Assembly: GCA_002843155.1 (NCBI GenBank)
Contig: PGZD01000001.1
Coordinates: 1 to 64,000 of the forward strand
DNA: 64,000 nucleotides
Direction of reading: 5' to 3'
Source of the DNA: Gammaproteobacteria bacterium HGW-Gammaproteobacteria-3
GTDB lineage: Bacteria; Pseudomonadota; Gammaproteobacteria; Methylococcales; Methylomonadaceae
Numbering within the stretch: the first letter of the stretch is position 1; every line of letters begins with the position of its first letter. Made by a program: the position numbers and the translations under genes. The notes under the pieces are model-generated. The model was not told the origin of the DNA and ran no database searches. It saw only the letters and a program-made list of their open reading frames with translations. Below are positions 3,358-46,875 of the stretch, in pieces.

Positions 3358-3748
3358 GACAGGCTCCGTTTAACGGGGGAGGTAATTGGCATAGTATAAC
3401 CTATCTGTGCCGGGCAGTGGAGAATTAGGATTGTCAACGGGGGCAGGGCCCGGGTTACCTTAATCGGGCACATGCTGTTCGTGCCCGCGCGGAACGGTGC
3501 CGTGATTTTTATAGTAGGCAAAAAACGTTGCTCACCCTTGTCATCAATGCTGTGGCTACAAGTCAATGCTTCTGCGGGTGCATTCACAGGGACGGTAGAT
3601 GACGTACCAAGGTTGGGAAGTCACTACATTTTGATTCCAGGCTTGACGGCAATTGTAGCGAAAACACTTGGCTTATGTGGCGTACGTTTTTCAGGGAGTT
3701 CACCGGAAAACTTTCGGTTTCGAGAGAAAAAAAGAACCATGCACAAAA
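3358..3748. other. Intergenic region with palindromes
   Basis: No credible gene. It contains an inverted repeat CGGGCAC/GTGCCCG (3465-3487) and near 3510-3535 a hairpin-type repeat of the GGCAAAAAACGTTGCTCACC kind that recurs near 45550 and 54390. Confidence 0.5.
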
Positions 3749-3778
3749 AAGGGCTTAGGTATTTCTACCTAAGCCCTT
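3749..3778 (-). terminator. Terminator of the tRNA-Asn locus
   Basis: Perfect 13-bp stem with a 4-nt loop; on the minus strand it is followed by TTTTTT and lies just past the CCA end of the tRNA-Asn fragment. This looks like the native terminator of the tRNA gene and marks the left side as original chromosome. Confidence 0.8.
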
Positions 3779-3786
3779 GATTTATT

Positions 3787-3833
3787 TGGCTCCCCCGGAC
3801 GGGCTCGAACCGCCGACCTAGTGATTAACAGTC
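3787..3833 (-). other. tRNA-Asn(GTT) 3' fragment: attachment site of the integrated element
   Basis: Read on the minus strand, these 47 nt are the anticodon loop with GTT, variable loop, T-arm (GGTTCGAGCC) and acceptor 3' strand ending in CCA of a tRNA-Asn. The 5' half is absent: upstream sequence no longer pairs properly with the 3' strand of the anticodon stem. A tRNA 3' end next to a tyrosine integrase is a typical att core. Because the native terminator sits on this side, the reconstituted full tRNA should be at the other end of the element. Confidence 0.8.
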
Positions 3834-3986: not shown

Positions 3987-5180
3987 ATGTTTACTGACAA
4001 ATCAATCAAAGGGCTTAAGGCAAAACCATCGGCATATAGACTCTATGAAAAAGGGCCTGATAAAGGCTTTGGTGTCAAAGTCACTCCAGCGGGAAGTGTG
4101 ACCTTTTTTATTCAGTATGCAGGTTCAGATGGTAAACAAAAGTTTACGAGTCTAGGACGATATCCATCGGTTACCTTATCTGAGGCTAGGGATAGATGTC
4201 GTGAACTGAGGCGGGATATTGATCGAGGAATTGACCCTCAAGCCCGCATCGAGCTAAGGCATGGCAGCGTAGCTGATTTGTTTGACTACTACATCAAGCA
4301 CATGGTTGATTCTGGTAAACGAACCTTCGAAAAGGTCGAGGCCGATCTCCATTACAACTGTAAAGATATTTTAGACTTACAAGCCAAAGACGTAACACCA
4401 GCCCATATAAGGAAAATACTTTACACAATTATTTCGCGAGGTTCGAATGTTCAGGCTAATCGAATTCGATCTTACTTAAGAAGGGCATTTGAATTAGGGG
4501 TTTATCACGATAACGATCCCAAAAACCTATCAAATGATTTTACCTTTCAAATACAAACCAACCCTGTCGATGCAATTCCAAAAGACACAAGTGCCGAAGT
4601 AGCTGGAGAAAGAGCGTTATCATTTGCCGAAATCAAAGTGCTTTGGAACGAAACATGCGTTCATGAGCAATTCCATCTAGCTACAAAATTATTACTCCTA
4701 TATGGCTGCCGTTCTTGGGAGCTCTGTGGTGCAATGAAACATGAGTTTGATTTTGATTCCATGATTTGGAGTGCCCCGCCAGAGCGCGTAAAAAACGAAC
4801 GCTGGCTGGTATTGCCAATCACTCCATTAGCAAAAAAATTACTTAATGAACTATGGCCGTATTCTGGAAATTCTGAATATCTATTTCCAAGTAGATATAA
4901 TGAAGAAAAAACGATTCATAAAACATCTTTGGCTCACGCCATAACTCGAATAAGCAGTATAGATACTTTTACACCGAGAGATTTAAGGAGAACAGTAAAA
5001 ACTCGTATGGGAGAAATTGGCATAGAGAAAAGCATCAGGGATAGGATACAAAATCATGCTTTAAATGATGTAAGTTCAAAACATTATGATAGATATGATT
5101 ACTTACAGGAAAAACGAAACGCCTTATTAAAATGGGAAACCCACCTAATCGAGTTGACTGCAGATAAAAATACCTTCTGA
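3987..5180 (+). CDS. int: Tyrosine recombinase / P4-type integrase
   Basis: Integrase of 397 residues that would catalyse site-specific recombination between the tRNA-Asn site and the circular element. It has an N-terminal DUF4102 arm-binding domain (IKGLKAKPSAYRLYEKGPDKGFGVKV), a core-binding domain and a C-terminal catalytic domain with the first arginine in LYGCRSWEL, the second-arginine region PRDLRRT and the nucleophile tyrosine in HYDRYDYL. The His of the usual HxxR box is replaced by Arg (PRDLRR), which occurs in this subfamily. It starts 153 bp from the att fragment and points into the element. Two copies of AGTGACCA just upstream of the ATG may be arm-type binding sites. Confidence 0.9.
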   Translation: MFTDKSIKGLKAKPSAYRLYEKGPDKGFGVKVTPAGSVTFFIQYAGSDGKQKFTSLGRYPSVTLSEARDRCRELRRDIDRGIDPQARIELRHGSVADLFDYYIKHMVDSGKRTFEKVEADLHYNCKDILDLQAKDVTPAHIRKILYTIISRGSNVQANRIRSYLRRAFELGVYHDNDPKNLSNDFTFQIQTNPVDAIPKDTSAEVAGERALSFAEIKVLWNETCVHEQFHLATKLLLLYGCRSWELCGAMKHEFDFDSMIWSAPPERVKNERWLVLPITPLAKKLLNELWPYSGNSEYLFPSRYNEEKTIHKTSLAHAITRISSIDTFTPRDLRRTVKTRMGEIGIEKSIRDRIQNHALNDVSSKHYDRYDYLQEKRNALLKWETHLIELTADKNTF

Positions 5181-20616: not shown

Positions 20617-23040
20617 ATGGAAAATACGCCCTTAACGCTCATTACCCGCATCCGCCAACGTCTGTTTGGAGTCGAGTCCGCGCCTATAGGTCCGGTTGTG
20701 ACAACGACTGATGAGGACGTGCCGCGTTATCCGCCGTTCATGAAGGGTTTGCCGGCTGCGCCTGTGGAACGCATCCTGTCTAGTCAAACGGAGTTGATTG
20801 GGGCCATCGAACAGGCGCTGGCCATGCCGGAAAGTCTTTATCAAACCATAGCCGCGCCGGTCTTACGCCGTTATGCCGCCTACAGCCATTTATTGCCGGC
20901 TTCGGAATCTCATCACCATCGCGGCGCCGGTGGCTTGTTTCGGCACGGATTGGAAGTCGCCCATTGGGCGACCTTGGCTTCCCAAGGCAGTTTGTTTGCC
21001 ACGTCAGCATCACCCAAGGAACGAAAAGCACAAGAATTACGCTGGCGTCTGGCGGTCTGTTTTGCGGGGCTGTTGCATGACATCGGCAAACCGGTCGCCG
21101 ATATCGCCGTAGTCGACGCACAGGGGCAACATACCTGGAACCCTTGCGATGAAAACATCACCGACTGGGCTGTGCGACATCAGATCGACCGATACTTTCT
21201 ACGTTGGAGGGATAACCGCCATAAACGCCATGAACAGTTTTCGGCCTTGGTAATCGAGCGCGTCCTCACCCGAGAAGCGCGCACATTCATTCTGGAGTCC
21301 GGCCCCGACATCATGCAGGCCATGCTGGAAACCATTAACGGTTTAGACCGCGGCTCCAAAGTTTACGCACTGGTGATAACCGCCGACTGCAGAAGTGTGG
21401 AACGGGATTTAAAAGCGCACTACCAAAACATCGACTCTGCCTTGGGCATGCCGGTGGAAAAGTACTTGTTCGACGCCATGCGCCGCTTGGTCAAGTCCGG
21501 ACAGTGGTCCGTCAACGAAAAAGGCGCTCGGCTATGGCGTTTCGAGCAAGGTCTGCATATCGTCTGGCGGGCCGGTGCGCAAGACATCGTCACATTGCTG
21601 GCCAAAGACAAAGTTCCCGGCATTCCGCGTGACGAAGACACCTTGGCGGACATCCTGATCGAACGCGGCTTGGCAATCCCTAAGTCCTGGCCAGATGGTC
21701 GGCAATACCGCTATTGGCAGATGCAGCCTGAAGGTTTGGACAATCCGCTATATCTGTTACGCCTGAAATCCGCGGAACTCGTTTTTAGCGGCGAACCACC
21801 AACCGTGGTAGACGCTCACGAAATCAGAGAACAGGATGCGACTGCTGTAACAACTGAGCCCGTTGCCAATCCGATACCGAAAACCAGCAAGCCGGCAAAA
21901 AGCAAGAATGTCGCGGTTCTGAAGCCGCCCCATCGTGCAGAGAATCCTTTGGCGGCAATCGAGGCGTCAATTCAGACAACTGAGGCGGATAACATAAATG
22001 TCCCCACGCACTGGGGCCAAACCGAATCCATTTCCGCAATCCCTTCTCCGGAATTCCCGCATGAAAGTAATTGTGCGCCATCTGCCCTGGATGAAGACTC
22101 GAATCAGTCTGATCTGGACAACAACCTTACCCGTCCGATTCAAGCCAAGGTGTCGCCAAACCCAACTACACCCATTCCAACTGTAAATGAATTTAATCAT
22201 CCAGCCTCCGAAACCGATCCACCCACGGTTGAAATCCCAACGCTTGATAGTCCCGTTGACAAAACCAAATCATGGCTGGACGATCATGGCCCCGCGGGAC
22301 AATGGTTATTAAACATCGCCTTTCACCTCAATCAGGACCAATGGCAATGGGGAATCGATATTCTGGAAGTTCAGGAGAAATACTTGCTTCCGTTTCCGGG
22401 CGCAGCTGAAAAACTAGGGCTTGATCCGAGTCAATTCATCAAAACGATGGAAGAAACCGGCTGGCTGGTCACCGATGTGCTGTCGCCCATGCGCAAGGTA
22501 CAAACCATCCAATCGGTTCGCGGCATCCTACTGGCATTGGAACCCAGTTTGGCTATGAAGACGTTATTGACCGCCCAAGGTGAAGTCAGACCGCTAGAGC
22601 CGTCAGCATCACCCCCAAACGACAGTGCTAACTCCGTCAGTAATCAGGGGCTGCTCAAGCGCCAAAAACGCACGAAACCGGAACCTAAAGTCGCTCAGCT
22701 CACCCCAAAAGTTTCCGGCAACCAACAATCGAGAAACGATAACGCTTCAGATATTATGGTTAAACCAAATGCCGACAAGTCAGCCGCGCCAAAAACAACG
22801 ACACCGGAGAAACCCGGAACGATCGATTTGCTGATAACGCATGTGCAGCAGCAAAACATTCCGCCCGAAGAATCATCCACGGAAGGCAACTGGCATAAGA
22901 TTTCCAATACCGAACTGGAACGGTTTCTGGCGCAACATCCAACCATCAAACGGACCCGATTCATGCTAGACATTGCCAATCACCCGGATTGTCGCTCGGT
23001 CAGTGCGACTGAAGGCATTCAGGTGCGGCTACGCCCATGA
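20617..23040 (+). CDS. traI: TraI relaxase of the MobH family
   Basis: 807 residues. The N-terminal third is the MobH relaxase domain with HHHRGAGGLFRHGLEVA at about residue 98 and the HD-type metal site LLHDIGKP at about 153; this family uses an HD-like fold to nick at oriT. A low-complexity Pro/Thr-rich linker covers about 400-540. The C-terminal part holds a TraI_2_C-like domain (about 545-650, WLDDHGPAGQWLLN) and another helical domain at the end. It overlaps traD by 4 bp (ATGA) and heads the traI-traD-traJ operon. Confidence 0.88.
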   Translation: MENTPLTLITRIRQRLFGVESAPIGPVVTTTDEDVPRYPPFMKGLPAAPVERILSSQTELIGAIEQALAMPESLYQTIAAPVLRRYAAYSHLLPASESHHHRGAGGLFRHGLEVAHWATLASQGSLFATSASPKERKAQELRWRLAVCFAGLLHDIGKPVADIAVVDAQGQHTWNPCDENITDWAVRHQIDRYFLRWRDNRHKRHEQFSALVIERVLTREARTFILESGPDIMQAMLETINGLDRGSKVYALVITADCRSVERDLKAHYQNIDSALGMPVEKYLFDAMRRLVKSGQWSVNEKGARLWRFEQGLHIVWRAGAQDIVTLLAKDKVPGIPRDEDTLADILIERGLAIPKSWPDGRQYRYWQMQPEGLDNPLYLLRLKSAELVFSGEPPTVVDAHEIREQDATAVTTEPVANPIPKTSKPAKSKNVAVLKPPHRAENPLAAIEASIQTTEADNINVPTHWGQTESISAIPSPEFPHESNCAPSALDEDSNQSDLDNNLTRPIQAKVSPNPTTPIPTVNEFNHPASETDPPTVEIPTLDSPVDKTKSWLDDHGPAGQWLLNIAFHLNQDQWQWGIDILEVQEKYLLPFPGAAEKLGLDPSQFIKTMEETGWLVTDVLSPMRKVQTIQSVRGILLALEPSLAMKTLLTAQGEVRPLEPSASPPNDSANSVSNQGLLKRQKRTKPEPKVAQLTPKVSGNQQSRNDNASDIMVKPNADKSAAPKTTTPEKPGTIDLLITHVQQQNIPPEESSTEGNWHKISNTELERFLAQHPTIKRTRFMLDIANHPDCRSVSATEGIQVRLRP

Positions 23041-24863
23041 AATCCGATTACGACCATCAATTTCCCTGGCGACCGATTTTTGAGGTGTATGCCATCTCCG
23101 GCTGGATCGGAGGGGCGGGATTAGCGTATTGGACCAGTCGTTGGTCGGGGTTGCCCCGAGAACCGTTTGATTGGTTAATGATCGCCTGTAGCGTAATAGC
23201 CTGTTATCGACTGCCTACGGCGGTGAGCCTTTGGTATCGCAAGCGCCGCCTAGGACAATTCCGCTTTCAATACCTGGATGCCGAGAAACTCAAGCACTTA
23301 ATCAAACACCATCCGGACGAGTTATGGTTTGGCTGGGGATTCGATTGGGTGCAAAAGCATGCACAATTGGCTTATGAGATTTTGAAACGGGATGTCTCGA
23401 CACTGATTCCGAACGATCATAAACGTATGGGCTCTGCCTGGATTCATGGCTTGGAAATTTCTGAAAACGATATCCGGCAGCCGCTTCAGCATACCGCCGG
23501 CCATACGCTACTAGTTGGCACCACCGGCGCCGGTAAAACCCGAGCGTTTGACGTGTTGGTTACGCAAGCCGTGTTGCGCGGCGAAGCGGTGATCATCATC
23601 GATCCGAAAGGCGATAAGGATCTGATGGCGTGTGCCAAACGGGCTTGCGAAATAGCCAATCGCCCCGATCGCTTCGTGTATTTCCACCCAGCTTTTCCGG
23701 AAGACAGCGTGCGGCTGGACCCGTTGCATAATTTCAATCGGCCATCCGAAATAGCAAGTCGTATCAGTGCTATTTCGCCCAGCGAAAGCAGTAACGATCC
23801 CTTCAAGGCATTTGGTCAGAAATCCCTGGATAACGTCATTCAAGGCTTGATGGTGATCGAAGAACGGCCAACGTTGGTAAAACTACGCCGCTACCTGGAA
23901 GGCGGTCCTTCGACCTTGGTAATTCAAGCCTTGGAACGTTATTTCGACAATAGTTTGGAGCATTGGCGGCAAGAGGCGCGACCTTACCTGAAAAATGCCA
24001 AGGATATCGACTCCAAAGCGGCTGGTTTGGTACGGTTTTACCGAGAAGTCGTACAGTATCAGGTGCCGAATTTGGATTTGGAGGGATTGTTGTCCTTGTT
24101 CGAACACGACCGAGCGCATTTCAGCAAAATGGTCGCTTCGCTGATTCCGATCATGAACATGCTGACATCGGGATCGTTGGGTCCGTTATTGTCGCCTAAC
24201 CCGCAGGACATTGATGACGTGCGGCCCATCACCAATACAGGCCATATTATTCAAAAAGCCCAGGTTGCCTATATCGGCTTGGACTCACTATCGGATGGCA
24301 TGGTTGGCAGCGCCATTGGCTCCATTCTATTGGCCGATCTGGCAGCCGTTGCCGGTGATCGTTACAACTACGGTGTCTCAGACAGACCCGTGAATGTCTT
24401 TGTCGACGAGGCCGCTGAAGTTATCAACGACCCATTCATTCAAGTATTAAACAAAGGCCGTGGCGCCAAAATTCGCTTATTCATCGCCACCCAGACCTTT
24501 GCCGACTTTGCAGCCCGCACCGGATCTCAGGACAAAGCCCGCCAGGTATTAGGCAACGTCAACAACCTGATCGCACTGCGCATCATGGACAGCGAGACTC
24601 AACAATACATCACCGACAATCTGCCCAAAACCCGACTCAAATACATTATGCGCACCCAGGGTGTCGCAACCAGCGCAACCAATCCCACCGTGTTTTCAGG
24701 GAATGTCGGCGAGCGACTAATGGAGGAGGAAGGCGATTTGTTTGCGCCACAGCTCCTCGGTCAACTGCCTGATTTGCATTACATCGCCAAGTTATCCGGC
24801 GGTCGCATCGTAAAAGGCCGTTTGCCTGTGCTGCAATCAGCACTTGATACCCAACTGACCTGA
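23037..24863 (+). CDS. traD: TraD conjugative coupling protein
   Basis: 608 residues. Two membrane segments near the N-terminus, then an FtsK/VirD4-like ATPase domain with Walker A GTTGAGKT at residue 161 and a Walker B-like NVFVDEAAEV near 460, followed by FIATQTFADF. This coupling ATPase brings the relaxase-DNA complex to the secretion channel. Its length and motifs match the SXT/TOL subfamily. It starts inside the traI stop and is followed after 2 bp by the next gene. Confidence 0.9.
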   Translation: MKSDYDHQFPWRPIFEVYAISGWIGGAGLAYWTSRWSGLPREPFDWLMIACSVIACYRLPTAVSLWYRKRRLGQFRFQYLDAEKLKHLIKHHPDELWFGWGFDWVQKHAQLAYEILKRDVSTLIPNDHKRMGSAWIHGLEISENDIRQPLQHTAGHTLLVGTTGAGKTRAFDVLVTQAVLRGEAVIIIDPKGDKDLMACAKRACEIANRPDRFVYFHPAFPEDSVRLDPLHNFNRPSEIASRISAISPSESSNDPFKAFGQKSLDNVIQGLMVIEERPTLVKLRRYLEGGPSTLVIQALERYFDNSLEHWRQEARPYLKNAKDIDSKAAGLVRFYREVVQYQVPNLDLEGLLSLFEHDRAHFSKMVASLIPIMNMLTSGSLGPLLSPNPQDIDDVRPITNTGHIIQKAQVAYIGLDSLSDGMVGSAIGSILLADLAAVAGDRYNYGVSDRPVNVFVDEAAEVINDPFIQVLNKGRGAKIRLFIATQTFADFAARTGSQDKARQVLGNVNNLIALRIMDSETQQYITDNLPKTRLKYIMRTQGVATSATNPTVFSGNVGERLMEEEGDLFAPQLLGQLPDLHYIAKLSGGRIVKGRLPVLQSALDTQLT

Positions 24864-31262: not shown

Positions 31263-32460
31263 TTATCCAGCCACCCAACACCAAACTCGCCAGTGAGCAA
31301 ATAATGTCGGACATTGTCGATATAGCTCCCGCAGCCATCGGCTGGCACGCCATTTCCGGCGCTGTAGCGATTTGAATTTCCGCCTTGCCCAGCTCAACAG
31401 TTTATCGTTGATATAGCTATAGATGGCCGACATCGCTGATTTTCTGAACTTTCCGTAATAGGGGATCCATCCCTGAACGATCGGATTAATCGCTTTTGCC
31501 AAATCAGCAATCCTTTGACTGTAGCCCGCTTTGATCAACGGGTGTCCTTTGAGCTTTGCTCTCATGGCTTTCAACGCTTTACGGCTGACGGCCGTTGAGA
31601 AGCTGACAAAGTGTCAAAGAACCAGCCGCTTCTATCGCGAGCCCTTCTGGGTCTGAATGTATATCCCAGAAAGTCAAAGCTCTGATTCGGATCTTGCCCG
31701 TCTCGGCTTGAGTCCTTGCAATACACAATCTTGGTTTTCTCCTGGCAAAGTTCCAGACCACACCGGATAAACCTTTGCCTGATTTGCCGCTCTACCATTT
31801 TCAACTGGGTTTCACTTCGACAGTGCACCACAATGTCATCGGCATAGCGTTCAAAATGGATACAAGGAAAGTGCTTCTTCATCCATTGGTCAAAGACCAG
31901 ATGCAAAAAGATATTAGCCAGCGACGGACTGATGACGCCACCTTGGGGCGTACCTTTCGCACGGCTGATCCTCTCTCCATTGGGCAGTATCACGTCGGCC
32001 TTTAACCAGCGTTCGATGTACAGCAACGTCCATTGGCAGTCGGTGTACTTGGCTACAGCTTTCATGACTAAGCCATGATCCAAGGCGTCGAAGAATCCCT
32101 TGATGTCCATATCCAGCACCCAATCATCCCGCCAACAGCGTTGCCGTGTTTGCGCAATAGCATCGAGCGCCGACTTTCCGTGGCGATAGCCATAGAAATC
32201 ATCATGAAAGTGTGGTTCCACAAGGAGTTCCAGCCGATTCTTGATAACCATTTGTGCAATTCGATCCGAGATAGTCGGTATACCCAATGGCATCAGCTTA
32301 CCGTTTGACTTGGGTATTTCGACACGACGTACCGGTGGCGGAAAGTAGCTGCCTGACGACAACCAATTCCATATTTTGTACAGATTGTTCTTTAAATCAG
32401 CCTCAAAATCCTTAATGGATTGCCCATCAATGCCGGCAGCACCCTTACATCTGCTTACTT
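31263..32460 (-). pseudogene. ltrA: Group II intron reverse transcriptase/maturase, frameshifted and 5'-truncated
   Basis: The frame from about 32460 carries the RT domain: GAAGIDGQSIKDFE, PLGIPTISDRIAQM, DMDIKGFFDALDH, GTPQGGVISP and the catalytic YADD. At about 31571 the frame shifts, and the maturase part (IADLAKAINPIVQGWIPYYGKFRKS, YINDKLLSWARRKF) continues in a second frame to 31263. The first 60 or so residues are missing: a stop interrupts just upstream of CKGAAGIDG. With domain V downstream this is a dead intron that cannot make its own protein. Confidence 0.85.
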
Positions 32461-33423: not shown

Positions 33424-34137
33424 GGTAAAACCGCTATTTTAGTGGCTTGCGAACACAATGACGGCAAGCCCGGTTTTGTGGCCATGAAGGTGGTTGAGCA
33501 GGTGACGCACGATAGTGTGAGAGCATTCGCCCAACAAACGCTTGCCCCAGGCCAAACCTTGCATACCGATGCGCTGGCTGCACTCAATGTGCTGGCCGAG
33601 GAACATCACCATATTGCCAAAGTAACCCCACCTGAAATGGCGAGTGAATGGTTACCTTGGGTTCATGTGGTCATCAGCAATCTTAAAAGCTATCTACTGG
33701 GTACTTACCATGGTGTGTCAGGCAACTATGTACAGGAATATCTCGACGAATTTTGCTATAGGTTGAATCGGCGATTTTGGGAAAACCAAATCCCTAATCG
33801 ATTACTCACGCTATGCGTCGCACATGAGCCGGTCTTTCTTCAACCTGCAGCTTGTTCATAGCCATTATTTTGTAAGCCATACATCACATTGCTCCAAGAG
33901 CAACAATTCTTCTGCTTCCTTGCTTCAATAGCGGCGATTTTTCCAATACATTGCCGCTAGCGCGGCATCAACAATAAAAATACAAAGAATTTATACTGAA
34001 TAAACAATTACTTACGAGTGGCATGAACTTTGCCTTGTAAGAGTTCAGGCGCAACGTATTTGTCTTTCTCCGAAACCTATTAGGGCAAACTTAACGGACG
34101 TAGCCAATATCTGAAAATATTTTAATTGGAGTTTCAA

Positions 34138-35504
34138 ATGAATAGAGAATTGTTTTCTCTCAAAAATTACCGGCGTATAAATTCATGGAGATTACGGAAG
34201 ATGTCGTTATTGGCGCTAGCGAGTACGGTGTCGCCTAGCGTATTGGCTCTGAATACCGGAACTGATCTGAATCTGTCTTTAAAACCAATTGCCGGTGGCA
34301 TGGCTGGTGCCGCTTATACTAAACCTCAAGAAGTTTCCGCCGCGTTGTTTGGTAATCCTGCCACCTTGACACAATTTAAAGGTTTCAATTTTGGTTTAGG
34401 AGCGGCCATTCTCGAACCTGAAGTGGACAATTATCAAAGTAACAACGGATTTACCAACCATTCCCGTAGTCTGGCCCAGAATTACATTGCGCCTGATATT
34501 GCTCTCAGTGGGGAAGTGTCGCCTGGTTTTGTGATTGGTGCCGGTGTTGCGGTTGATTCCGGTCTGGGCGCCGATTATCGTACGCAGCCAATCAATGGAG
34601 GGGCCGGACTCGGGCTGGGGGGGGGGGAGCTGGTGGCGCGGCTACATTGCCTTTGGATGTGGAATTGCTTTCATTTAGCGCCAATGTGGGGACTGCTTAT
34701 GAGTTGACACCCAAATTGTCATTAGGCGCTGCATTAACGGTAGGATTCGGTTTGGGCCAGTTCGGGACTGTGGGAAATACTACGGGACTTGGCGGTTTAT
34801 CAGGTGATTTTGGGGGGACAACGTCCAGCGTACATAATATTTCAGTTCGTGGCGCTTTCGGGGCAACTTATCAACTCACTCAGGATGTAAAGATAGGCGC
34901 CTCAGTAAAGACTCCTTTGGAATATAACTATCGTAACGTATTGTCGACCACAGTGGGCGGCGCTCAGGAATACCAAAGCGTAAAGGTAGAACAACCATTG
35001 GAAGCAACTTGGGGTATAGCAGCCAATCCGACCCCTAATTTGTTGTTAGAGGCGGACGTAGCATGGAAAAACTGGTCACAATCTTCGTTATATAAGGATG
35101 TCTATGACGATCAATTCCTGGCCATGTTTGGGGGCCAATATAATTTGGGGAATTGGCAATTTAGGACAGGCTACAGTTATGCTACGGAGGTGCTCCGTGA
35201 CGAGCCAAACGGTACGGTAGGAGGCTTTAAAGGGGTGGGGTCGCTTCCTCTTGATACCCGTGTCCCCGGTGTTCTTAATAACAACGATTTGGTTAAAGTC
35301 GTACAAACTACCTTAGCCCCGGTTGTTTGGCAACATACAGCGACGGCAGGCTTGGGATACGCTTTTTCACCCAAGTTTAGACTGGATGCGTTTGCGGCCT
35401 ATGCTTTTGAAGGTTCGGCAAGCCGCAGTACGCTGGCTTTGGGGGAGTATGCGGTTAACGTTAGCGAATGGGCGCTGGGTGCGGGAGCCAATTTCAAATT
35501 TTAA
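34138..35504 (+). pseudogene. FadL/TodX-type outer-membrane transport protein, out of frame at a G11 tract
   Basis: The frame from 34138 (GGAG at the right distance; an upstream TTG is ignored) encodes a signal peptide, LNLSLKPIAGGMAGAAYTKPQEVSAALFGNPATL and the first barrel strands typical of OMPP1/FadL/TodX channels for hydrophobic compounds. At a run of 11 G (34617-34627) it shifts and stops at 34707. The remaining barrel (LPLDVELLSFSANVGTAYEL to the C-terminal Phe, WALGAGANFKF) is open in the next frame to 35504. A tract of 9 or 12 G would restore one protein of about 455 residues. It is either phase-variable, a fixed frameshift, or a sequencing error in the homopolymer. Confidence 0.8.
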
Positions 35505-35639
35505 GTGATTGGCGCCGAATAATTCATTCCGGGATTATTCGGCAAAACTAATCTTCAGGTCAAATCCGTAGCAACCGTTTTGATATAGCACCTGGTCCAG
35601 TACGTCTTCATGTAAACCTAGTTTTAGAAAATCCCCAAT

Positions 35640-36388
35640 CGATCACCCCATTGCGGGAACGAGTACGAGCTGCCAAACAACAATTGCTCCTTCATAACAC
35701 TGTTGGTCGCTTCCACATACAAGTTTCCGCCCAGTAGAAAAATATACATGTCCGGGACGACGTAAACGTTTTCTTAGCGAAACGCGACGCCGATCATTTC
35801 GTTCACATACGGATAAAAACCGTGGTAGCAGACGATGGCAAACCTGAAAAAGTCCAGGCAACCTTACCGGCGGCGACCGGATTATCAAATTCCAGGTTCG
35901 GTGTGGTCGGGCCGGACATTAAAAATACCGGCACATCCAGTTGTTTGCAGACGCCATAAATCGGGTAGAGCAAAGGCTCATTGGCCTGAATGGGCGGCGC
36001 GCCGAATTCGGGGTCCATGTTAATTCCTCTCAACCCTCGTGTGTTCATGGTCTTTTCAATTTGCTAGGCGATGCCGATCAGTTCCGGGTGCGGCCCGGTA
36101 ATGTCACGAATGGTCTCGTTGGAGATTGTGATGTCGGGCGTGTCGCGGGGCGACGAGCGCATGATGGATTACCACCTAGCGAATTTCCTCGATAAACCCA
36201 TCCAGGGTATGCGAGCGGACAAAGTGATCGTCCTGTTTAGAACCCAAGCGGCGATTAAGCCATTTGGCGGTTTCATATTCGGGTTTTGCCGGTTGTTAGT
36301 CCCGCAACGATTGCCGCTGTAGCGGCAGTCGTTGCGATTCGCTGCTGCAAAATCGGCATTCAAATCGATAATGCTCTCATTAGTCACT
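35640..36388 (-). pseudogene. Amidohydrolase-family pseudogene
   Basis: The minus strand reads IIDLNADFA, then after stops MRSSPRDTPDITISNETI, DITGPHPELIGIA, a stop, GINMDPEFG, EPLLYPIYGVCKQLDVPVFLMSG, and after a frameshift VCYHGFYPYVNEMIGVAFR, a stop, ENVYVVPDMYIFL. The order matches metal-dependent amidohydrolases of the 2-amino-3-carboxymuconate-semialdehyde decarboxylase type. At least three stops and one frameshift make it dead. Confidence 0.75.
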
Positions 36389-36493
36389 TAAAAAACAATA
36401 GGATACAAGTTGGCATAATATGTGCTCAAACCTAAGTGCAGTACCCATGCTTTGTAGGCATTGGGATTTTTCAACCGTACAAAGGCAATCAGC

Positions 36494-36613
36494 ATGAGTA
36501 CATTAAAAGTCGTGGTTGTTTCGGGCAATCTAGGGCTAGGCGCGAAGCCAGCCTTCTCGATCGACAATCCCGGCTCAATATTTCGGAGATTCACATGTCA
36601 CAGAATGATTTGA
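36494..36613 (+). pseudogene. FMN reductase (MsuE-like) N-terminal remnant
   Basis: A 39-codon frame beginning MSTLKVVVVSGNLGLGAKPA, which resembles the flavin-binding start of NADPH-dependent FMN reductases such as MsuE, then loses similarity and stops inside the next gene. Its neighbours are sulfonate/sulfone genes, which supports the reading. Very short, so tentative. Confidence 0.4.
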
Positions 36614-37137
36614 AAGCAACATTAGAGAACACCATTGCCGCCTTGCAAAAAAATCCGGCGGGCGCCCGCCTGGTTTTCAAGGCGCAGACCCGCCTGCTCG
36701 ATGGCGTGCGCTGCGCCGCCGAAGTGCGAGATTTTCCGCCGCTGATCATTGACGAGCCCCCTGAACTGGGTGGTGGAGACGCGGGTGCAAACCCCGTCGA
36801 GCTGATACTAGCCGCGCTCGGCACCTGTCAGGAAATCGTCTATGCGGCTTACGCCGCCGTGTTGGGCATCCCTTTGACGGCCGTCGAGGTGACCGCCAAG
36901 GGCTATCTGGATCTGCATGGCTTGTTCGGCTTGAAAGAGGTGCACTCCGGTTTCCAGAAAATCAGTTTTGAAACCATATTGAAGAGCCCTGCGGACCCGG
37001 AAACGATCAGCCAGCTGGTTGCGTCCGTGGAAGCGCACTGTCCCGTGCTCGATACCTTGACCCGGCCGGTCGAGGTGGCCGGCACGGTCATACTCAATGG
37101 CGCGCCGCTGAGCGTCCTGGCAAGCGACGCCGCGTGA
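36595..37137 (+). CDS. OsmC-family protein
   Basis: 180 residues from MSQNDLKATL at 36595; a longer frame from 36436 is unsupported. The OsmC layout is seen: a beta-rich start, LGGGDAGANPVELILAALGTCQEIVYAAYA with one redox Cys, and VASVEAHCPVLDTL with the second Cys. OsmC-type proteins reduce organic hydroperoxides or act in sulfur assimilation side functions. Here it lies among organosulfur genes, where such OsmC paralogues are common, and is followed by the sfnG remnant after 10 bp. Confidence 0.85.
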   Translation: MSQNDLKATLENTIAALQKNPAGARLVFKAQTRLLDGVRCAAEVRDFPPLIIDEPPELGGGDAGANPVELILAALGTCQEIVYAAYAAVLGIPLTAVEVTAKGYLDLHGLFGLKEVHSGFQKISFETILKSPADPETISQLVASVEAHCPVLDTLTRPVEVAGTVILNGAPLSVLASDAA

Positions 37138-37147
37138 GGAAATCCAC

Positions 37148-37405
37148 ATGAGCCAATCACATCATAGCAATAGCCCCATCAAATTCGCCTACTGGGTACC
37201 CAATGTCAGCGGCGATCTGCTGGACAGTATAATCGAGCAGCGCACCAGTTGGGATATCGACTATACCCCACACCTAGAAGAAGCCTATTGTGTCGCCGAA
37301 TTGCTATTCCCGTTGTTGCCGGTTGCAAAAGCGCCTGAAAAAACACACGCCAAACCGGCGTTCCATTTCAGCCCCGTGGGTGATGCCGGAAAAGTCGAGT
37401 TGTAA
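37148..37405 (+). pseudogene. sfnG: SfnG-like dimethylsulfone monooxygenase, truncated
   Basis: The first 45 residues (IKFAYWVPNVSGDLLDSIIEQRTSWDIDY) match the N-terminus of FMNH2-dependent SfnG-type monooxygenases, which split dimethylsulfone to methanesulfinate. After HLEEAY the sequence departs from the family and the frame ends at 85 codons instead of about 360. The rest is absent, so the pathway step is lost unless another copy exists. Confidence 0.65.
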
Positions 37406-37536
37406 GCCAAGGCCGGATGAGCAGAGGCCTCGCCGAGACTGACGATGACATCGTTTGCCCCCCCCAAGCCCGTAATATAAACCTAAAACCAGACCCTTTA
37501 CAGACTCTATCAACCTCGTCAACCACCCTAAAGCCC

Positions 37537-38808
37537 ATGAAACTAGAAACGATCGCCGTACACGGTGGCTACAGCCCCGATCCGACCACCAAAGCCGTGG
37601 CCGTGCCCATTTATCAGACCACTTCTTACGCATTTGACGATACCCAGCATGGCGCCGATCTCTTCGATTTGAAAGTGGCCGGAAATATCTATACCCGCAT
37701 CATGAATCCGACTTCGGACGTGCTCGAAAAGCGCGTGGCCGCCTTGGAAGGCGGGATCGCTGGGCTGGCGCTGGCCTCCGGCATGGCGGCGATTACCTAC
37801 GCGATCATGACCATCGCCGAAGCCGGCGACAACATCGTCTCCGCCGCCACTCTGTACGGCGGCACTTACAATCTCTTTGCCCACACCCTGCCGCAATACG
37901 GCATCAACGTGCGTTTTGCCGATTATCGCGATCCCGAAGCTTTCGATGCTCTGATTGACGGCAAAACCAAGGCGATTTTCTGCGAATCGGTCGGCAACCC
38001 GCTCGGTAACGTGACCGATTTTGAACGGCTGGCCGACATTGCCCACCGCCACGGCGTGCCGCTGATTGTCGACAACACGGTGCCATCGCCTTATCTTTGC
38101 CGTCCGATCGAGCACGGCGCCGATATTGTCGTGCACTCGCTGACCAAATATCTGGGCGGTCATGGCAACAGCATCGGCGGCGTGATCGTCGATAGCGGCA
38201 AATTTCCTTGGGCCGAGCATAAAGCGCGTTTCCCTCGCCTGAACGAGCCCGACGTGTCCTATCATGGCGTCGTTTACACCGAAGCCCTGGGACCTGCCGC
38301 TTACATTGGCCGAGCCCGTGTTGTGCCGTTACGCAATACCGGCGCGGCCCTTTCGCCCTTCAATGCGTTTTTGATCCTGCAAGGCATAGAAACCTTGGCG
38401 CTGCGCATGGACAGGATCTCTGAAAACGCCGTCAAGGTGGCGCGATACCTACAAAATCACTACAAAGTGGAATGGGTCAACTACGCTGGGCTCGAAGATC
38501 ATCCGGATAAACCGCTGGTCGATAAATACATGGGTGGACGCGCCTCCGGTATTCTGACTTTTGGCTTGAAAGGCGGCCGCAAGGCGGGCGAGCATTTTCA
38601 GGATGCGCTAAAACTGTTCACCCGCCTCGTGAATATCGGCGATGCCAAATCGCTGGCTTGCCACCCGGCATCGACCACGCATCGGCAATTGTCACCTCAA
38701 GAGCTGCTCAAAGCGGGCGTCACCGAGGACATGGTGCGTTTATCGATCGGGATAGAACACGGCGACGACATTGTCGCGGATTTGGAACAGGCGCTCGAAG
38801 CGGTTTGA
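37537..38808 (+). CDS. metY: O-acetylhomoserine sulfhydrylase
   Basis: 423 residues from MKLETIAVHGGYSPDPTT at 37537; the upstream 40 codons of the frame are unlike the family. A PLP enzyme of the Cys/Met metabolism family that makes homocysteine from O-acetylhomoserine and sulfide. Seen are QTTSYAFDDTQHGADLF, NIYTRIMNPT, LASGMAAI, the PLP lysine in VHSLTKYLGGHG, and TFGLKGG and LSIGIEHGDDI at the C-terminus. It is complete. In this neighbourhood it would fix sulfide released from organosulfur compounds. Confidence 0.92.
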   Translation: MKLETIAVHGGYSPDPTTKAVAVPIYQTTSYAFDDTQHGADLFDLKVAGNIYTRIMNPTSDVLEKRVAALEGGIAGLALASGMAAITYAIMTIAEAGDNIVSAATLYGGTYNLFAHTLPQYGINVRFADYRDPEAFDALIDGKTKAIFCESVGNPLGNVTDFERLADIAHRHGVPLIVDNTVPSPYLCRPIEHGADIVVHSLTKYLGGHGNSIGGVIVDSGKFPWAEHKARFPRLNEPDVSYHGVVYTEALGPAAYIGRARVVPLRNTGAALSPFNAFLILQGIETLALRMDRISENAVKVARYLQNHYKVEWVNYAGLEDHPDKPLVDKYMGGRASGILTFGLKGGRKAGEHFQDALKLFTRLVNIGDAKSLACHPASTTHRQLSPQELLKAGVTEDMVRLSIGIEHGDDIVADLEQALEAV

Positions 38809-38999
38809 CGCTGGAGGATTGTCCTGTGCTTGGCAGATCCCGGCGTAACAAGCCAGGATATACCTGTCCTGAGAGCCGTTAATTTTTGCGAAACCCGACA
38901 ACCCAGATTATTACATTTAAGCATAATCATATTGATACTAATCGTTTTATAAGTTTTTTAAAGCATGTTATCTTGTCGGTTAACGTAACTTCAAAGGAT

Positions 39000-40193
39000 A
39001 TGTTTTTACTTATGCATTTACTTGCTTTTCCTAATCCCTCCGAGATGGCTCTCTCAATTCGAGCATCAGCTCTCGTTTTCGAAGATCCAAAATCCAAAGA
39101 GTTACTTGACAGAATCAAACGTATTGCGCCAAGTGAGTTGAATGCTCTTATCATTGGCGAAACTGGTACTGGGAAAGAACTGGTCGCTCGTCACATACAT
39201 GAACTGAGCACAAAGTGCAACGGGCCCTTTCTAGCGGTTAATTGCTGTGCCTTATCGGAAACATTGATTGAGAGTGAGCTGTTCGGTCATGAAAAAGGGG
39301 CTTTTACCGGTGCGATGACGACCAAACAGGGCTGGTTTGAGGCTGCTTCGGGTGGCACGCTTTTTCTGGATGAGATTGGTGATCTGCCGCAGTCGATGCA
39401 GGTAAAATTATTGCGGGTTTTGCAGGAACGAGAGGTGGTCCGGGTTGGCTCTCGCAAGGCAATACCCATAGACGTGCGATTGATTGCAGCAACCAACGTC
39501 AAGTTAGAGGAAGCTGTCATGGCCGGTCGGTTTCGCGAGGATTTGTACTATCGTCTGAATGTGGCTGCATTGAATTTATTGCCATTGCGGCAACGTATCG
39601 GGGATATCTTGCCCCTAGCCGAGCATTTTTTAAAAGTTTATGGTCAGCGGCTGGGTTGTCCGAAAGCTACTATTGCCCCAACTGCAAAACAAATTTTGTT
39701 AACGCATACTTGGCCCGGTAACATTCGTGAATTGGAAAATGTTATCCATCATGCCTTATTGGTAACCCGTGACCTTACCATTAAGCCAGCGGATTTAAAT
39801 CTCTCTCAATTGCGAAGGTTTCCTAAATCGGCAGGCTCTGATACTGGAGATTTTGAGAGATTAGTCAGTGCATTTCAAGTTTTATGTGAGCAAGGATATC
39901 CTGATTTGTATGCTCGTGCCGAACAAGCTTTGTTACAAGTAGCTTATATGCATACCGACCGAAACCAATTGGCAACAGCAAGATTGCTTGGGCTGAGCCG
40001 ACATGTGGTTCGGGCTAGATTGATTCAGCACCATATCCTGACAGCAGGGGAGCCGGGAACTGAAAAATCTCATCCTGTATTGCCGCAGAGTGTGGGTGGA
40101 TCTCCCATTATTGTGCGTGATTTTTTTCCAAAGGATGAAGAATACAAAGAGATTTTTTTAGCCGAATCATCGCAAGAATGCTGGGCCTTTTGA
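39000..40193 (+). CDS. sfnR: Sigma-54-dependent activator, SfnR-like
   Basis: 397 residues from ATG 39000, where AAAGGA sits at a good distance; upstream in-frame codons lack this. It has no receiver domain. The AAA+ domain carries Walker A GETGTGKE, the sigma-54 contact loop GAFTGA, Walker B GGTLFLDEIGD and the RFREDLYYRLNV sensor region; a C-terminal helix-turn-helix follows (NQLATARLLGLSRHVVRARL). The start SIRASALVFEDPKSKELL fits SfnR-type activators of dimethylsulfone utilisation genes. It lies 191 bp behind metY on the same strand. Confidence 0.85.
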   Translation: MFLLMHLLAFPNPSEMALSIRASALVFEDPKSKELLDRIKRIAPSELNALIIGETGTGKELVARHIHELSTKCNGPFLAVNCCALSETLIESELFGHEKGAFTGAMTTKQGWFEAASGGTLFLDEIGDLPQSMQVKLLRVLQEREVVRVGSRKAIPIDVRLIAATNVKLEEAVMAGRFREDLYYRLNVAALNLLPLRQRIGDILPLAEHFLKVYGQRLGCPKATIAPTAKQILLTHTWPGNIRELENVIHHALLVTRDLTIKPADLNLSQLRRFPKSAGSDTGDFERLVSAFQVLCEQGYPDLYARAEQALLQVAYMHTDRNQLATARLLGLSRHVVRARLIQHHILTAGEPGTEKSHPVLPQSVGGSPIIVRDFFPKDEEYKEIFLAESSQECWAF

Positions 40194-40550: not shown

Positions 40551-43500
40551 TTAAAACGACAATCTTCGCAGTCGCAGAGCGTTCATGATGACTGAAACAG
40601 AACTAACACTCATCGCTGCCGCCGCAATCATCGGTGAAAGCAAAATATCAAATAACGGATAAAGCACACCAGCTGCAACGGGAACACCGAGGGCGTTGTA
40701 GATGAAGGCAAAAAACAGGTTCTGACGTATATTACTCATGGTAGCTTGACTTAACAGCCGTGCCCTGGCGATTCCACGAAGATCGCCTTTGACCAGTGTG
40801 ACCCCCGCACTTTCCATCGCGACATCGGCGCCCGTACCCATCGCAATGCCTACATCCGCCTGCGCCAGTGCCGGCGCATCGTTGATACCGTCGCCCGCCA
40901 TTGCCACGATATGGCCTTCAGCCTGCAATTGTTTAACGAAAACGGCTTTCTGTTCAGGCAATATTTCCGCTTCAACCCGATCTATGCCGAGTTTTTTTGC
41001 CACGGCATTGGCTGTGGTTTTATTATCGCCGGTCAGCATCACGACTTTTATCCCTGCTTCGTGCAGAGCTTTCAATGCTTCCGGTGTTGACGATTTGATG
41101 GGGTCGGCAACACTGATAAACCCAGCAAGTTTCCCGTCCACGGCGACAAACATTACGGTCTGCCCTTCCAGACGGAGCTCGTCAGCCTGTTTTTGTAAAG
41201 GCGTTGTATCGATATTCTGGGCTTCCATTAATTGGGCATTACCGAGTGCAACTTGGCAGTCTGAAATCCTGCCACGAACACCTTGACCGGTGACAGATTC
41301 AAATTGTTCTCCAGCAGTCAGCTTGACGCCCTTTTCTTCAGCACCTTTAACAATGGCGGCAGCAAGCGGATGTTCGCTGGCTTTTTCCAGGCTTGCACCG
41401 AAATATAACACTTCCTCTTCGGAAAAATTCTTGCCGGCGACTACGGACAAGAGACGGGGCTTACCCTCGGTCAGAGTGCCTGTTTTGTCGATCACCAAGG
41501 TATTTATTTTTTCCATGATTTCCAGCGCTTCGGCATTTTTAATCAATACCCCGAGCTGAGCGCCCTTGCCGGTACCGACCATAATCGACATAGGCGTGGC
41601 AAGACCGAGAGCGCAGGGGCAGGCGATAATAAGTACGGCTACCGCATTAACAATGGCATGAGCCAAACGCGGTTCCGGCCCGCACTGCCACCAGACCAGC
41701 ATTGTAATAATGGCTATGATGACAACGGCCGGGACAAACCAGGCGGCAACCACATCCGCCAGTTTCTGGATCGGCGCCCGGCTGCGCTGAGCTTCACTGA
41801 CCATCTTCACAATCCGGGCCAGCAGCGTTTCGCCGCCGACCTTCTCAGCAAGCATCAGCAGACTACCGGTGCTGTTGATGGTGGCACCTATCAGTCGATC
41901 GCCGGCATTTTTTTCCACCGGAATAGGCTCTCCGGTCACCATCGATTCATCGACACTGCTGACACCTTGCTGTACGACACCGTCAACAGGGATTTTTTCG
42001 CCGGGTCGGACACGTAACACATCGCCCGGTTTTACCTGTTCAAGAGGAATATCTTCTTCCTTGCCGTTGTTATAAACCCGGCGAGCAGTTTTCGGTACCA
42101 GCTCCAGCAACATTTTGATAGCCTGATTGGTGCGGCTTCGAGCCCGCAACTCCAATACTTGTCCAAGCAACACCAAGGTAGTAATAACGGCCGCGGCCTC
42201 GAAATAGACGGCTACCATGCCATTTGAGTTGCGTAGGGTTGACGGGAAAATCCCCGGCGCAACCGTTGCTGCCACGCTGTACCCCCAAGCAACGCCGATA
42301 CCCAATGCGATCAGCGTAAACATGTTTAAATTGCGATTAATGACAGATTTCCAGCCGCGCTGGAAAAACGGCCAGCCGCCCCACAAAACCACCGGCGTGG
42401 CTAAAGCAAATTCAAGCCATTGCAGCCAGTGGGTGAAAAAGTCGCCAGCAATCAAGCCCGGTATCAGGTCGTGAACCATTGCCAAAATGAACACAGGTAT
42501 CGATAGCGCTGTCGATACCCAAAACCTTCGACTCATAACGGTGAGTTCTTGGTTTTCCTCTTCCTCCCCTGAAACGTCGCGGGCTTCCAGAGCCATACCG
42601 CACTTAGGACAGAAACCGGGCTCACTGCGGATGATTTCCGGATGCATCGGACACACATATTCACCATGAATTTCGGAAATCTTATTTTCTATAGGATTCA
42701 TCAGCTCCAGGGCCATTCCGCATTTAGGACAGTTACCGGGATTTACCAGGCGAATTTCGGGGTGCATGGAGCAGGTATAAGTTTTTTCATTAGCGTATTT
42801 TTCCATTATCTTATCCTTTGTTGCTAGGCGGCCACGGATGACTTTTCTCAATTCAAGGACAATCAACGGTATGAATCCAACCCCGATCCACGACACGCAC
42901 TGATGTAGAGAAACCGGTTCTATCCGGAATAGCGTTTGCAGCATGGGGACATGATGTATCGCCAACTGCAAAGAAAAACTCACTGCGACAACCAAAAATA
43001 AGCGGATATTGGAAAACAAGCCTATCTGCCAAAGGGTACGCTGTTCACTCCGTGCGCCGAAAGAGCGCAGCAATCCGGTGATCACCAAAGCGGTAAAGGC
43101 GGCGTCGCGGGCATGATCAAGACCGCTGCCGATGATATAGAGTTCATAAGCAAACACGCCGAGCGTGACACTGGCGGCCAGTAAGCCGGTGAATAGGGTT
43201 AGTTTGAGTAAATCCCGATTGAGCAGCGCTGACTGGGAATGTCGCGGCGAACGGCTCAACACGTCGGGATCAATCGGATCGGTCGAGAGGGCCAGCGCTG
43301 CAAAGCCGTCTGTTACCAGGTTGATCCATAAAAGATGCAGCGGCAATAACGGCAGCGGCCAACCCAATAGGACGGCTATCAGCATTACGATCAATTCGCC
43401 GGTACTGCTGCCCAACAGATAAGCCAAGGTTTTAGCGATATTGTCATAGATACCCCGCCCTTCCTCCACGGCAGCAACAATGGAAGCAAAGTTGTCATCC

Positions 43501-45512
43501 GTCACAATCATATCCGCGGCCTCTTTGGTCACTTCGGTACCGGTTAGCCCCATAGCGATACCGATGGACGCCTCTTTGATCGCAGGCGCATCATTAACCC
43601 CGTCCCCGGTCATCGCTACAACTGCGCCCAGCGCTTTCCATGCGCGGACAATGCGGAGTTTGTGTTCGGCGGTAACCCTCGCATAAACGGAAACTTGCGA
43701 GACACGCTCCTTCAGCGCTTCGTCATCCAGGCGGTCAAGTTCAGCGCCTACGAGAACTTGGTCGCCCTTGGCCAGAATGCCCAATTCAAGACCTATTGCC
43801 CGTGCAGTGTCCGGATGATCGCCTGTAATCATCACGGATTTGATGCCTGCCCGCTTGCATTTGGCCACCGCTTCCTTTGCTTCGCCTCGGGGTGGGTCCT
43901 GTAAGCCTACGAGTCCCAAAAAAGTAAGCTTTTGCTCGATCTCGGCGTCGTTTACACCCCTGCCTGCTTCGAAACTGAAGCCGTCCAGCGGGCGCTCGGC
44001 CACGGCAAGCACACGCAGTGCATCCTGCGCCAGTAAGGCATTAGCCTGTATCATTCGACTACGGTCATTCTCGGTCAATTCTCTGACTCCCTGATCGGTT
44101 CGGATCAGGGTGCAACGACTAAGAATAACTTCGGGCGCACCTTTGACGAATGCCCAGGTATAGTTTTCCCGACGACGGATGACCGTCATCCGTTTGCGGT
44201 CGGAATCGAAAGGCACCGTAGCCAGGCGCGGCATTTCAGTCTCGAAGACCTCGCGGGTAATACCGCCTTTTGCGGCGACCACCAGTAGCGCCCCTTCAGT
44301 AGGATCGCCGATGACTACAGGCCGGTTATCGACTAGGGCCAGTTCGGCATCGTTACAGGCGACCGAGGTACGCAGCAAAGCCAGGAGTTCATGACTTTCA
44401 GACGGCAGGCTTTCCACGTTTCCGGAAAAGAATGCGCCTTCAGTGGCGTAGCCTTCGCCGGTGACGCGATACAAGCTTGTTGAGGTGATCAACTTGCGGG
44501 CGGTCATTTCACCCATCGTTAGCGTGCCGGTCTTGTCCGTGCAGATAACCTGGGCACGGCCTAGCGTTTCAACCGAGGCCAAACGCCGCACCAGGGCGTG
44601 ACGCTGTACCATGCGCTGCACACCCAACGCGAGCGCAATAGTCACCACCGCCGGCAGCCCCTCCGGAATGGCGGCTACCGCGAGACTCACCGAGCTCAAG
44701 AAAAGCTCAAACGGGGCAATCCCGCGTAATAATCCCAAGCCAAAAATCAGCGTGACAATACCGAAACAGGCCATCAACAGCAGGCGTCCTGCCCGTTCAA
44801 GTTGGCGTTGCAACGGAGTTTCTCCGCTTTCGGCTGCCTCCAGAAGCTTGGCGATATGGCCGAGTTCCGTCTCCATGCCGGTATTAACCACCAGAGCGCG
44901 ACCGGTTCCCCCCGTTACGCTGGTGCCGAGGAAGACCATATTGTTCCGCTCCGCCAGAGACGTTTCCTGAGGCAGTTTGTCTGTGGATTTTCCTACCGCT
45001 TGCGATTCGCCGGTCAGCGGCGCTTCGTTGATTTGAAGAACCGATGCTTGGATCAGGCGAGCGTCCGCAGCGACCAGATCCCCGCCTTCCAGCAACAGGA
45101 TATCGCCAGGAACAATTTCTATAGCAGTAACCACCAGGCTATGACCGCCGCGCACCACGCGGCAATGGGGCGCTGTCAGACGACTTAATGCGGCCGCCGC
45201 CTTCTCAGCGCGATATTCCTGAAGGAAACCGATTATCGCATTCAAAATAACGATGGCAATAATGGCGATGCCGTCTATAGTTTCGCCTAATGCAGCGGAA
45301 ACCGCCGCCGCACCGATCAACACCCAGATAACCAGACTTTTAAACTGACTTACAAAAATGACCAAGGCCGAGACGCGCTTGCCCTTGCGTAGTTTATTTT
45401 GCCCATACCGGGTGAGCCGTTTTTTCGCTTCATTGCCAGAAAGACCCTGCTCTATATCGGTCTCGAGAAGGCTTGCGGCTTCGGTAATCGATTGGTTATG
45501 CCATGCGTTCAT
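40551..45512 (-). CDS. Fused P2-type cation ATPase and P1B copper ATPase
   Basis: 1653 residues from [12 protein letters not shown] at 45512. Residues 1-902 are a full P2-type (Ca2+-ATPase-like) pump: N-terminal cation ATPase domain, PEGLP in TM4, phosphorylation site [18 protein letters not shown] hinge. Residues 903-1653 are a full copper ATPase: two cysteine-rich heavy-metal domains (YTCSMHPEI and YVCPMHPEI, each with CPKCGMAL), the TM metal site [10 protein letters not shown], phosphorylation site DKTGTLTEG and GDGINDAP. The copper part has its own ATG (42806) with an AAAGGA 7 nt upstream, so it may also be made separately. I see no stop between the halves. It is the last gene of the copB side of the copper cluster. 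Confidence 0.85.
42804..42819 (-). promoter_or_regulatory. Internal ribosome binding site and start for the copper ATPase half
   Basis: On the minus strand AAAGGA (42814-42819), a 7-nt spacer and ATG (42804-42806) opening [12 protein letters not shown], exactly where a free-standing copper ATPase would begin. Confidence 0.6.
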
Positions 45513-45543
45513 AATGGTGTTTCTCACATTAACATTAACAGCC

Positions 45544-45581
45544 GTGTAGGGTGGGCAAAAAAGCATTGCTCACCCTATACG
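45544..45581. repeat. Hairpin repeat upstream of the ATPase gene
   Basis: Inverted repeat GTAGGGTGGGCAA / TTGCTCACCCTATAC with a short loop. Related sequence with GGGCAnAAAAACGTTGC occurs near 3510 and 54390. It may act as a terminator between copB and the ATPase or be a dispersed repeat. Confidence 0.55.
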
Positions 45582-45756: not shown

Positions 45757-46875
45757 TTAGAACCAGATACGCGCCCCGGCAACGAACCGTACATCCTCCG
45801 CAGCATCACCTGCAGCACGTATATTATCTGCCGCAGAGCCAAATTGACTAGCCCAGTCAACGCCCACGTAGGGAGCAAATTCTCGTCGAATCTCGTAACG
45901 CAGGCGCAGGCCTGCTTCAATGTTGGACAAGCCGCTACTCACGTCGCGGGTGTCGTCTCTCCGGCTATAAATATTCATCTCGATGCGTGGCTGCAGGATG
46001 AGCTTTTGTGTCAGCAATAAATCGTATTCTGTTTCGAGACGGAATGCGGTACGCCCTTGCTCGTTAACATAACCCGTCGCTTCCACATACAGCCAGTAAG
46101 GCAGTAGCCCCTGGATACCGAAGGCGAGCCAGCCGCGATCCGTGCCCTTGCCGCTGTCGTAACGGACACCCAGCTGCGTGTCCAAATAAGCGGTAATGGC
46201 GTGCGCCCAAAGCAACTCGTTGCGCGCGTTTTTAAATGTACCACTCTCAATCTCGCCTTCAGCTCGGATGAGTGCACGATCATAAGTCTGACCATACCAG
46301 GCCTGCCAGTCGTAAGCCACAGAAGTGTTGTTGCGTGTAGTCACACTTTCGAGCCGATCGACCAGCAATGAGCCAAAATTATCTTCGTCCCCCATTTTGG
46401 GTCGTGGAATCGGGCCGAAGTTGTAACCATCTGAATAGGCGTGCGGATCGCGAGCATCGGGTGGGGCCGAGTCACCCTGCATGGACATGGATTCGTCGCT
46501 GCCATGAATCATGTTGCTCATGTCGTTGGCCTTTCCGGAAGTTGCGCCTCCGTGGTTCATGTCATGTCCTGAACCTTTCACCGTATCGGACTTATCACCT
46601 TGTTCCATGCCCGGTATGGCATTGTGATTCATCTTGCTGTGATCCATGCCCGGCATAGCCCTCATCTCATCGGATACATTTGCCGGAGCCGGCATTGACT
46701 TTGTCCCGGGCTTTACTTCACGACGCTTCTGCTCCGTCTGTGCGGAATGATAGGCGTGGTCGGCGTGAACTTGGTTCGTTTGCGCGTTTTCCTCTGTCGT
46801 TGTGCCTTGTGCCCAAACAGAGGATAGGTTGAGAACCATCAAGGCGGCGATCAAATTTACTCGACGGTTCACCAT
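45757..46875 (-). CDS. copB: Copper resistance outer-membrane protein CopB
   Basis: 372 residues from MVNRRVNL (46875), preferred over ATG 46890 because AGGAAA precedes it. Signal peptide ending VWAQ, then a Met/His-rich copper-binding region (MPGMDHSKMNH, MEQGDK, MNHGG; residues about 45-130) and a C-terminal beta barrel of the CopB family starting GPIPRPKMGDEDNFGSLLVDRLE and ending in FVAGARIWF. CopB binds or exports copper at the outer membrane. It is downstream of copA on the same strand. Confidence 0.9.
   Translation of the reverse strand: MVNRRVNLIAALMVLNLSSVWAQGTTTEENAQTNQVHADHAYHSAQTEQKRREVKPGTKSMPAPANVSDEMRAMPGMDHSKMNHNAIPGMEQGDKSDTVKGSGHDMNHGGATSGKANDMSNMIHGSDESMSMQGDSAPPDARDPHAYSDGYNFGPIPRPKMGDEDNFGSLLVDRLESVTTRNNTSVAYDWQAWYGQTYDRALIRAEGEIESGTFKNARNELLWAHAITAYLDTQLGVRYDSGKGTDRGWLAFGIQGLLPYWLYVEATGYVNEQGRTAFRLETEYDLLLTQKLILQPRIEMNIYSRRDDTRDVSSGLSNIEAGLRLRYEIRREFAPYVGVDWASQFGSAADNIRAAGDAAEDVRFVAGARIWF

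Follow-up and report, generated by a model that had tools for sequence, protein, structure and literature searches.

A gene for a FadL/OMPP1/TodX-family porin (positions 34138–35504, + strand) in the 64,000-nucleotide stretch analyzed here—hereafter the window, which forms the start of a 184-kb contig—is split into two reading frames by a run of eleven G (G11; 34617–34627, + strand). This frame break is confirmed, and we consider it reasonably likely that it reflects a recent, one-off frameshift loss within a decayed cluster on a mobile element, a better explanation than reversible switching, which is a live but unsupported rival.

The porin gene begins with an ATG at 34138 and its first frame stays open until 34707, while the second frame is open from upstream of the G11 run through the stop ending at 35504. 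The initial annotation had already described two clean frames meeting exactly at the run, and our frame analysis agrees. It had also called the product a FadL-type porin, and both halves indeed pass the cut-off (29.7 bits) of PF03349 (Toluene_X, OMPP1/FadL/TodX), with 33.7 and 31.5 bits compared to 59.5 bits for the intact orthologue in the complete genome G116; moreover, the GNPA motif is present. FadL porins are built as a 14-strand barrel with a hatch. An AlphaFold model computed from a two-sequence alignment reached a mean pLDDT of 25, and a single-sequence search of solved structures returned no relative of the porin. In the intact orthologues (455 aa), interrupted glycine/alanine codons occupy the place of the run. 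There, the shared flanks are spaced 15 nt apart, as opposed to 14 nt in the window, and hence tract lengths divisible by three preserve one frame—in keeping with the earlier proposal that 9 or 12 G restore the protein. Apart from G11, we found no further lesion across 1.35 kb of the gene. The position of the run, as the sole frame break of a conserved gene, is real.

We carried out the orthologue comparison called for earlier, searching 237 genomes of the family and then 311 of the order. The porin was matched in 21 other genomes, with no internal stop among the matches listed. All 15 close orthologues are intact and carry no G or C run longer than 6, arguing that the tract is new in the lineage of the window. 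The nearest one (93.7% DNA identity) belongs to G116, and the orthologues of Methylovulum miyakonense and Methylobacter sp. BlB1, likewise intact, are 84–85% identical across the second half of the porin. The sole other frameshifted copy—also with G11—was found in a further complete genome, G123. Neither of the two G11-bearing genomes encodes a second close copy of the porin, and no copy of the gene was found in plasmid and viral collections.

We then assigned base changes on the window branch relative to G116, using three outgroups. This yielded 21 synonymous and 4 non-synonymous changes, versus 14 and 11, respectively, on the G116 branch. Had selection on the gene been absent over 10% of the window branch, the probability of four or fewer non-synonymous changes would be 0.002–0.008, and the neutral share of the branch is at most about 5–10%. 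Thus, either the frame was broken very recently or it is intermittently regained. This is the single result that keeps reversible switching alive.

Base composition alone would give ~1.2 runs of G11 in the 3.13-Mb assembly, and the one in the porin is the only one there; its length is therefore not extreme genome-wide, although runs of eight are about five-fold depleted (14 seen versus 77 predicted). Within the window, the G8 word has five matches, four of which overlap inside the G11 run, against 2.2 expected. Four base changes fall within nine bases at the tract (P about 3e-5 relative to the rate of the gene, for a site chosen post hoc). As this far exceeds the rate of the gene, the run probably arose through one or a few slippage-like events.

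Runs of at least 11 G are present in 137 of the 237 family genomes. Of the 11 runs in G123 that reach at least 9, three measure 14–18, for which composition predicts ~0.05. Changes like that in the porin occur elsewhere: in an amidohydrolase relic next to the porin, the window reads ATTACCACCTAG where G116 has C10 (L043:8462–8471), and a phosphate-transporter-like relic of G123, identified by eye, contains C14 (L081:3344–3357). The C14 and C10 sites were seemingly once CCACCACC-like and, judged from these sequences, pure tracts seem to be born recurrently there through loss of interruptions. A Crp-like gene adjoining a probable squalene-hopene cyclase gene carries a C-run at its 3′ end that alters the C-terminus; this run measures C18 in G123 (L082:3452–3469) versus C13 in G116 (L091:3206–3218). 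G116 also harbors a C26 run in a spacer (L090:3424–3449). Most of the long G/C tracts that we looked at elsewhere in the group are thus found within relics, at gene ends, or in spacers. Poly-G runs look to be born often in these genomes, at sites that, among those inspected, are mostly without strong constraint.

The porin is the first gene of an sfn-type organosulfur cluster, immediately preceded by an IS1595/ISXO2-type transposase fragment (33442–33861, + strand). A sigma-54-type −24/−12 element (TGGCATGAACTTTGC; 34019–34033, + strand; 0.14 expected in the window) is located 119 nt upstream of the porin ATG, and its GGCA..GC core is kept in the orthologues. The order in G116 is porin, amidohydrolase relic, MsuE-type reductase, acyl-CoA dehydrogenase, OsmC, SfnG, SfnB/DszC-like enzyme, and RibBA. 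Downstream of the porin in the window, an amidohydrolase-2 relic (35574–36292, − strand) consists of four pieces in different frames, as compared to an intact 282-aa protein (L045:3413–4258). It is followed by a remnant of an msuE-type FMN reductase (36422–36547, + strand; about 42 of 220 aa), an intact gene for an OsmC-like protein (36580–37137, + strand), a remnant of the dimethylsulfone monooxygenase gene sfnG (37130–37282, + strand; the first ~50 of 375 aa), and about 50 aa of an acyl-CoA-dehydrogenase-fold C-terminus (37268–37417, + strand; matching L045:10563–11756), whose SfnB/DszC-like family was assigned from the G116 counterpart. A 1.8-kb deletion at 36537/36538 removed most of msuE and the acyl-CoA dehydrogenase gene, and together with a 3.4-kb deletion at 37267/37268 it accounts for the loss of most of msuE, the acyl-CoA dehydrogenase gene, sfnG, the sfnB-like gene, and ribBA. 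Two intact genes follow, encoding an O-acetylhomoserine sulfhydrylase-type protein (37417–38808, + strand) and a sigma-54-dependent activator (38886–40193, + strand) that, by its position, may be SfnR-like. SfnG, taken here as the criterion for an sfn cluster, scores 635 bits in G116 (cut-off 383), while only ~50 aa are left in the window. The dimethyl sulfone pathway is known from Pseudomonas and Acinetobacter, in an account that does not mention a FadL porin (PMC13352529). By the SfnG family match and analogy to that pathway, we infer a link of the present cluster to dimethyl sulfone.

The porin gene sits on a ~152-kb element spanning contig positions 3745–156085 (3745–64000 within the window). 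Its left att end (3745–3833) is an 89-bp repeat with an identical counterpart at 155997–156085, which overlaps an intact tRNA-Asn gene (156039–156114). The element encodes a tyrosine integrase (3987–5180, + strand), a MobH-family relaxase (20617–23040, + strand; 408.7 bits, cut-off 200), and an SXT-type TraD coupling protein (23037–24863, + strand; 682.2 bits, cut-off 366)—with the att repeats at a tRNA gene, the features of an integrative conjugative element (ICE)—as well as, for the mating-pair apparatus, a candidate TraG-like protein scoring below its cut-off. Between contig positions 3780 and 156118, there are just three differences to G123 (at 14213, at 46137, and a 2-bp indel at 87579), while other stretches compared are about 65–75% alike, if they align at all, and the genomes are assigned to different genera. 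In the G123 copy, a 59-bp repeat marks the same two ends. The att repeats, integrase, relaxase, and TraD, combined with this near-identical copy, argue that the ICE has recently moved between genera. We rejected a contaminant contig as the source of the similarity, as the shared block stops at the att repeats and the sequence beyond it departs from G123 on either side (about 71% identity on the right where alignable, no long match on the left); a chimeric assembly is a less firmly rejected alternative. The G116 porin cluster adjoins genes that, compared by eye, resemble those of the transfer region of the element. Copper and heavy-metal genes are among the cargo. A 1671-aa frame (40551–45566, − strand) comprises two complete P-type ATPases, of calcium type (residues 25–911) and copper/heavy-metal type (1082–1666), and a group II intron reverse-transcriptase-like frame lies in two pieces at 31263–32362 (− strand).

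In the scenario we favor, the porin is a FadL/TodX-type outer-membrane channel that served an organosulfur scavenging cluster, with dimethyl sulfone or sulfonates as presumed substrates, and this cluster travels as cargo of the ~152-kb ICE in Methylococcales methanotrophs. Two deletions and frame breaks have reduced the cluster on the window element, and a glycine-rich stretch of the porin has turned into a pure G11 run one base off the ancestral spacing. Translation would then stop about 80 nt past the run, leaving the latter two thirds of the barrel unmade. The loss, shared by both known copies of the element in two genera, would be very recent on the branch and presumably is not switched back in living cells. 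We favor this recent loss because the tract is absent from 15 close, all-intact orthologues; partner genes are deleted (1.8 and 3.4 kb) and the amidohydrolase is broken; G11 is identical in two genera, with only 3 differences in 152 kb; neither genome has another close porin copy; and the other long C/G tracts of the group sit in relics, a gene end, or spacers. Counting against it, the porin has no other lesion, its branch shows the 21:4 ratio, and the promoter-like element has stayed intact, as have the OsmC, sulfhydrylase, and activator genes. Such features also fit a gene still used in part of the population.

The main rival is phase variation, whereby slippage would alter the length of the G run such that only a fraction of the cells produces the channel. 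The initial annotation considered the tract mutable, and its length does fall within the size range that switches genes in other bacteria, such as Campylobacter, where runs of at least 8 G mediate switching (PMC6321876). As in SSR phase-variable loci, a long homopolymer inside the gene sets its frame, which is otherwise intact and seemingly selected, and the C18/C13 difference at the Crp-like gene end shows that such tracts vary in length between species here. However, the two copies available for comparison are both G11, no orthologue carries the tract (its retention in close homologues being usual, albeit not universal, for such loci), partner genes are deleted, and the 11 G123 runs of 9 or more reveal no set of tract-bearing surface genes. 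The earlier suggestion of reversible switching is thus unsupported, and we regard phase variation as unlikely, if the strongest of the alternatives; the remainder of the frame looks to have been under selection almost until now, as it and recent loss alike predict. The bolder idea of a newborn poly-G switch among environmental, non-pathogenic bacteria, with a conjugative element ferrying an organosulfur porin subject to phase variation from one methanotroph genus to another, is more doubtful still.

Two further readings appear improbable, and to a similar degree. Slippage during transcription or translation of the G run could provide a little full-length porin from unchanged DNA, and the frame beyond the run still looks selected; yet the orthologues need no such step, which speaks against this route, and we see no direct support for it. 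Alternatively, the true length might be in frame and G11 a homopolymer assembly or sequencing error. Homopolymers are error-prone, the run is one base off the orthologue spacing, and the cluster of four changes in nine bases is unusual, but the equal length in two assemblies from two organisms tends to speak against an error.

Our text search returned neither a report of a contingency gene in methanotrophs nor anything on Methylomonas phase variation. A switching tract would make the porin a contingency gene in methanotrophs, and one spread by conjugation. If the tract does not switch, the porin illustrates cleanly how a mobile element can carry a pseudogene of very young age, and it cautions against reading a poly-G frameshift, taken alone, as phase variation.

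Similarly to the poly-G contingency genes of Campylobacter, Neisseria, and Helicobacter, the window porin harbors a G run of switching length within the frame of a surface protein, here in the off-frame state; unlike in those genes, the two element copies have the same length, the homologues are tractless, and no genome-wide set was seen. With FadL/OMPP1/TodX porins it shares the Pfam match in both halves and the GNPA motif, yet the window copy is frameshifted whereas its orthologues are intact. Pseudomonas sfn/msu clusters have MsuE-, SfnB-, and SfnG-type enzymes in common with the intact relatives and the sigma-54 activator in common with the window; in contrast to them, the present cluster includes a FadL porin, OsmC, and ribBA, and is gutted in the window. 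Finally, the element resembles SXT/R391-like MobH ICEs in its integrase, MobH relaxase, SXT-type TraD, and att repeats, and differs from them by its location at tRNA-Asn, its copper/heavy-metal cargo, and its methanotroph host.
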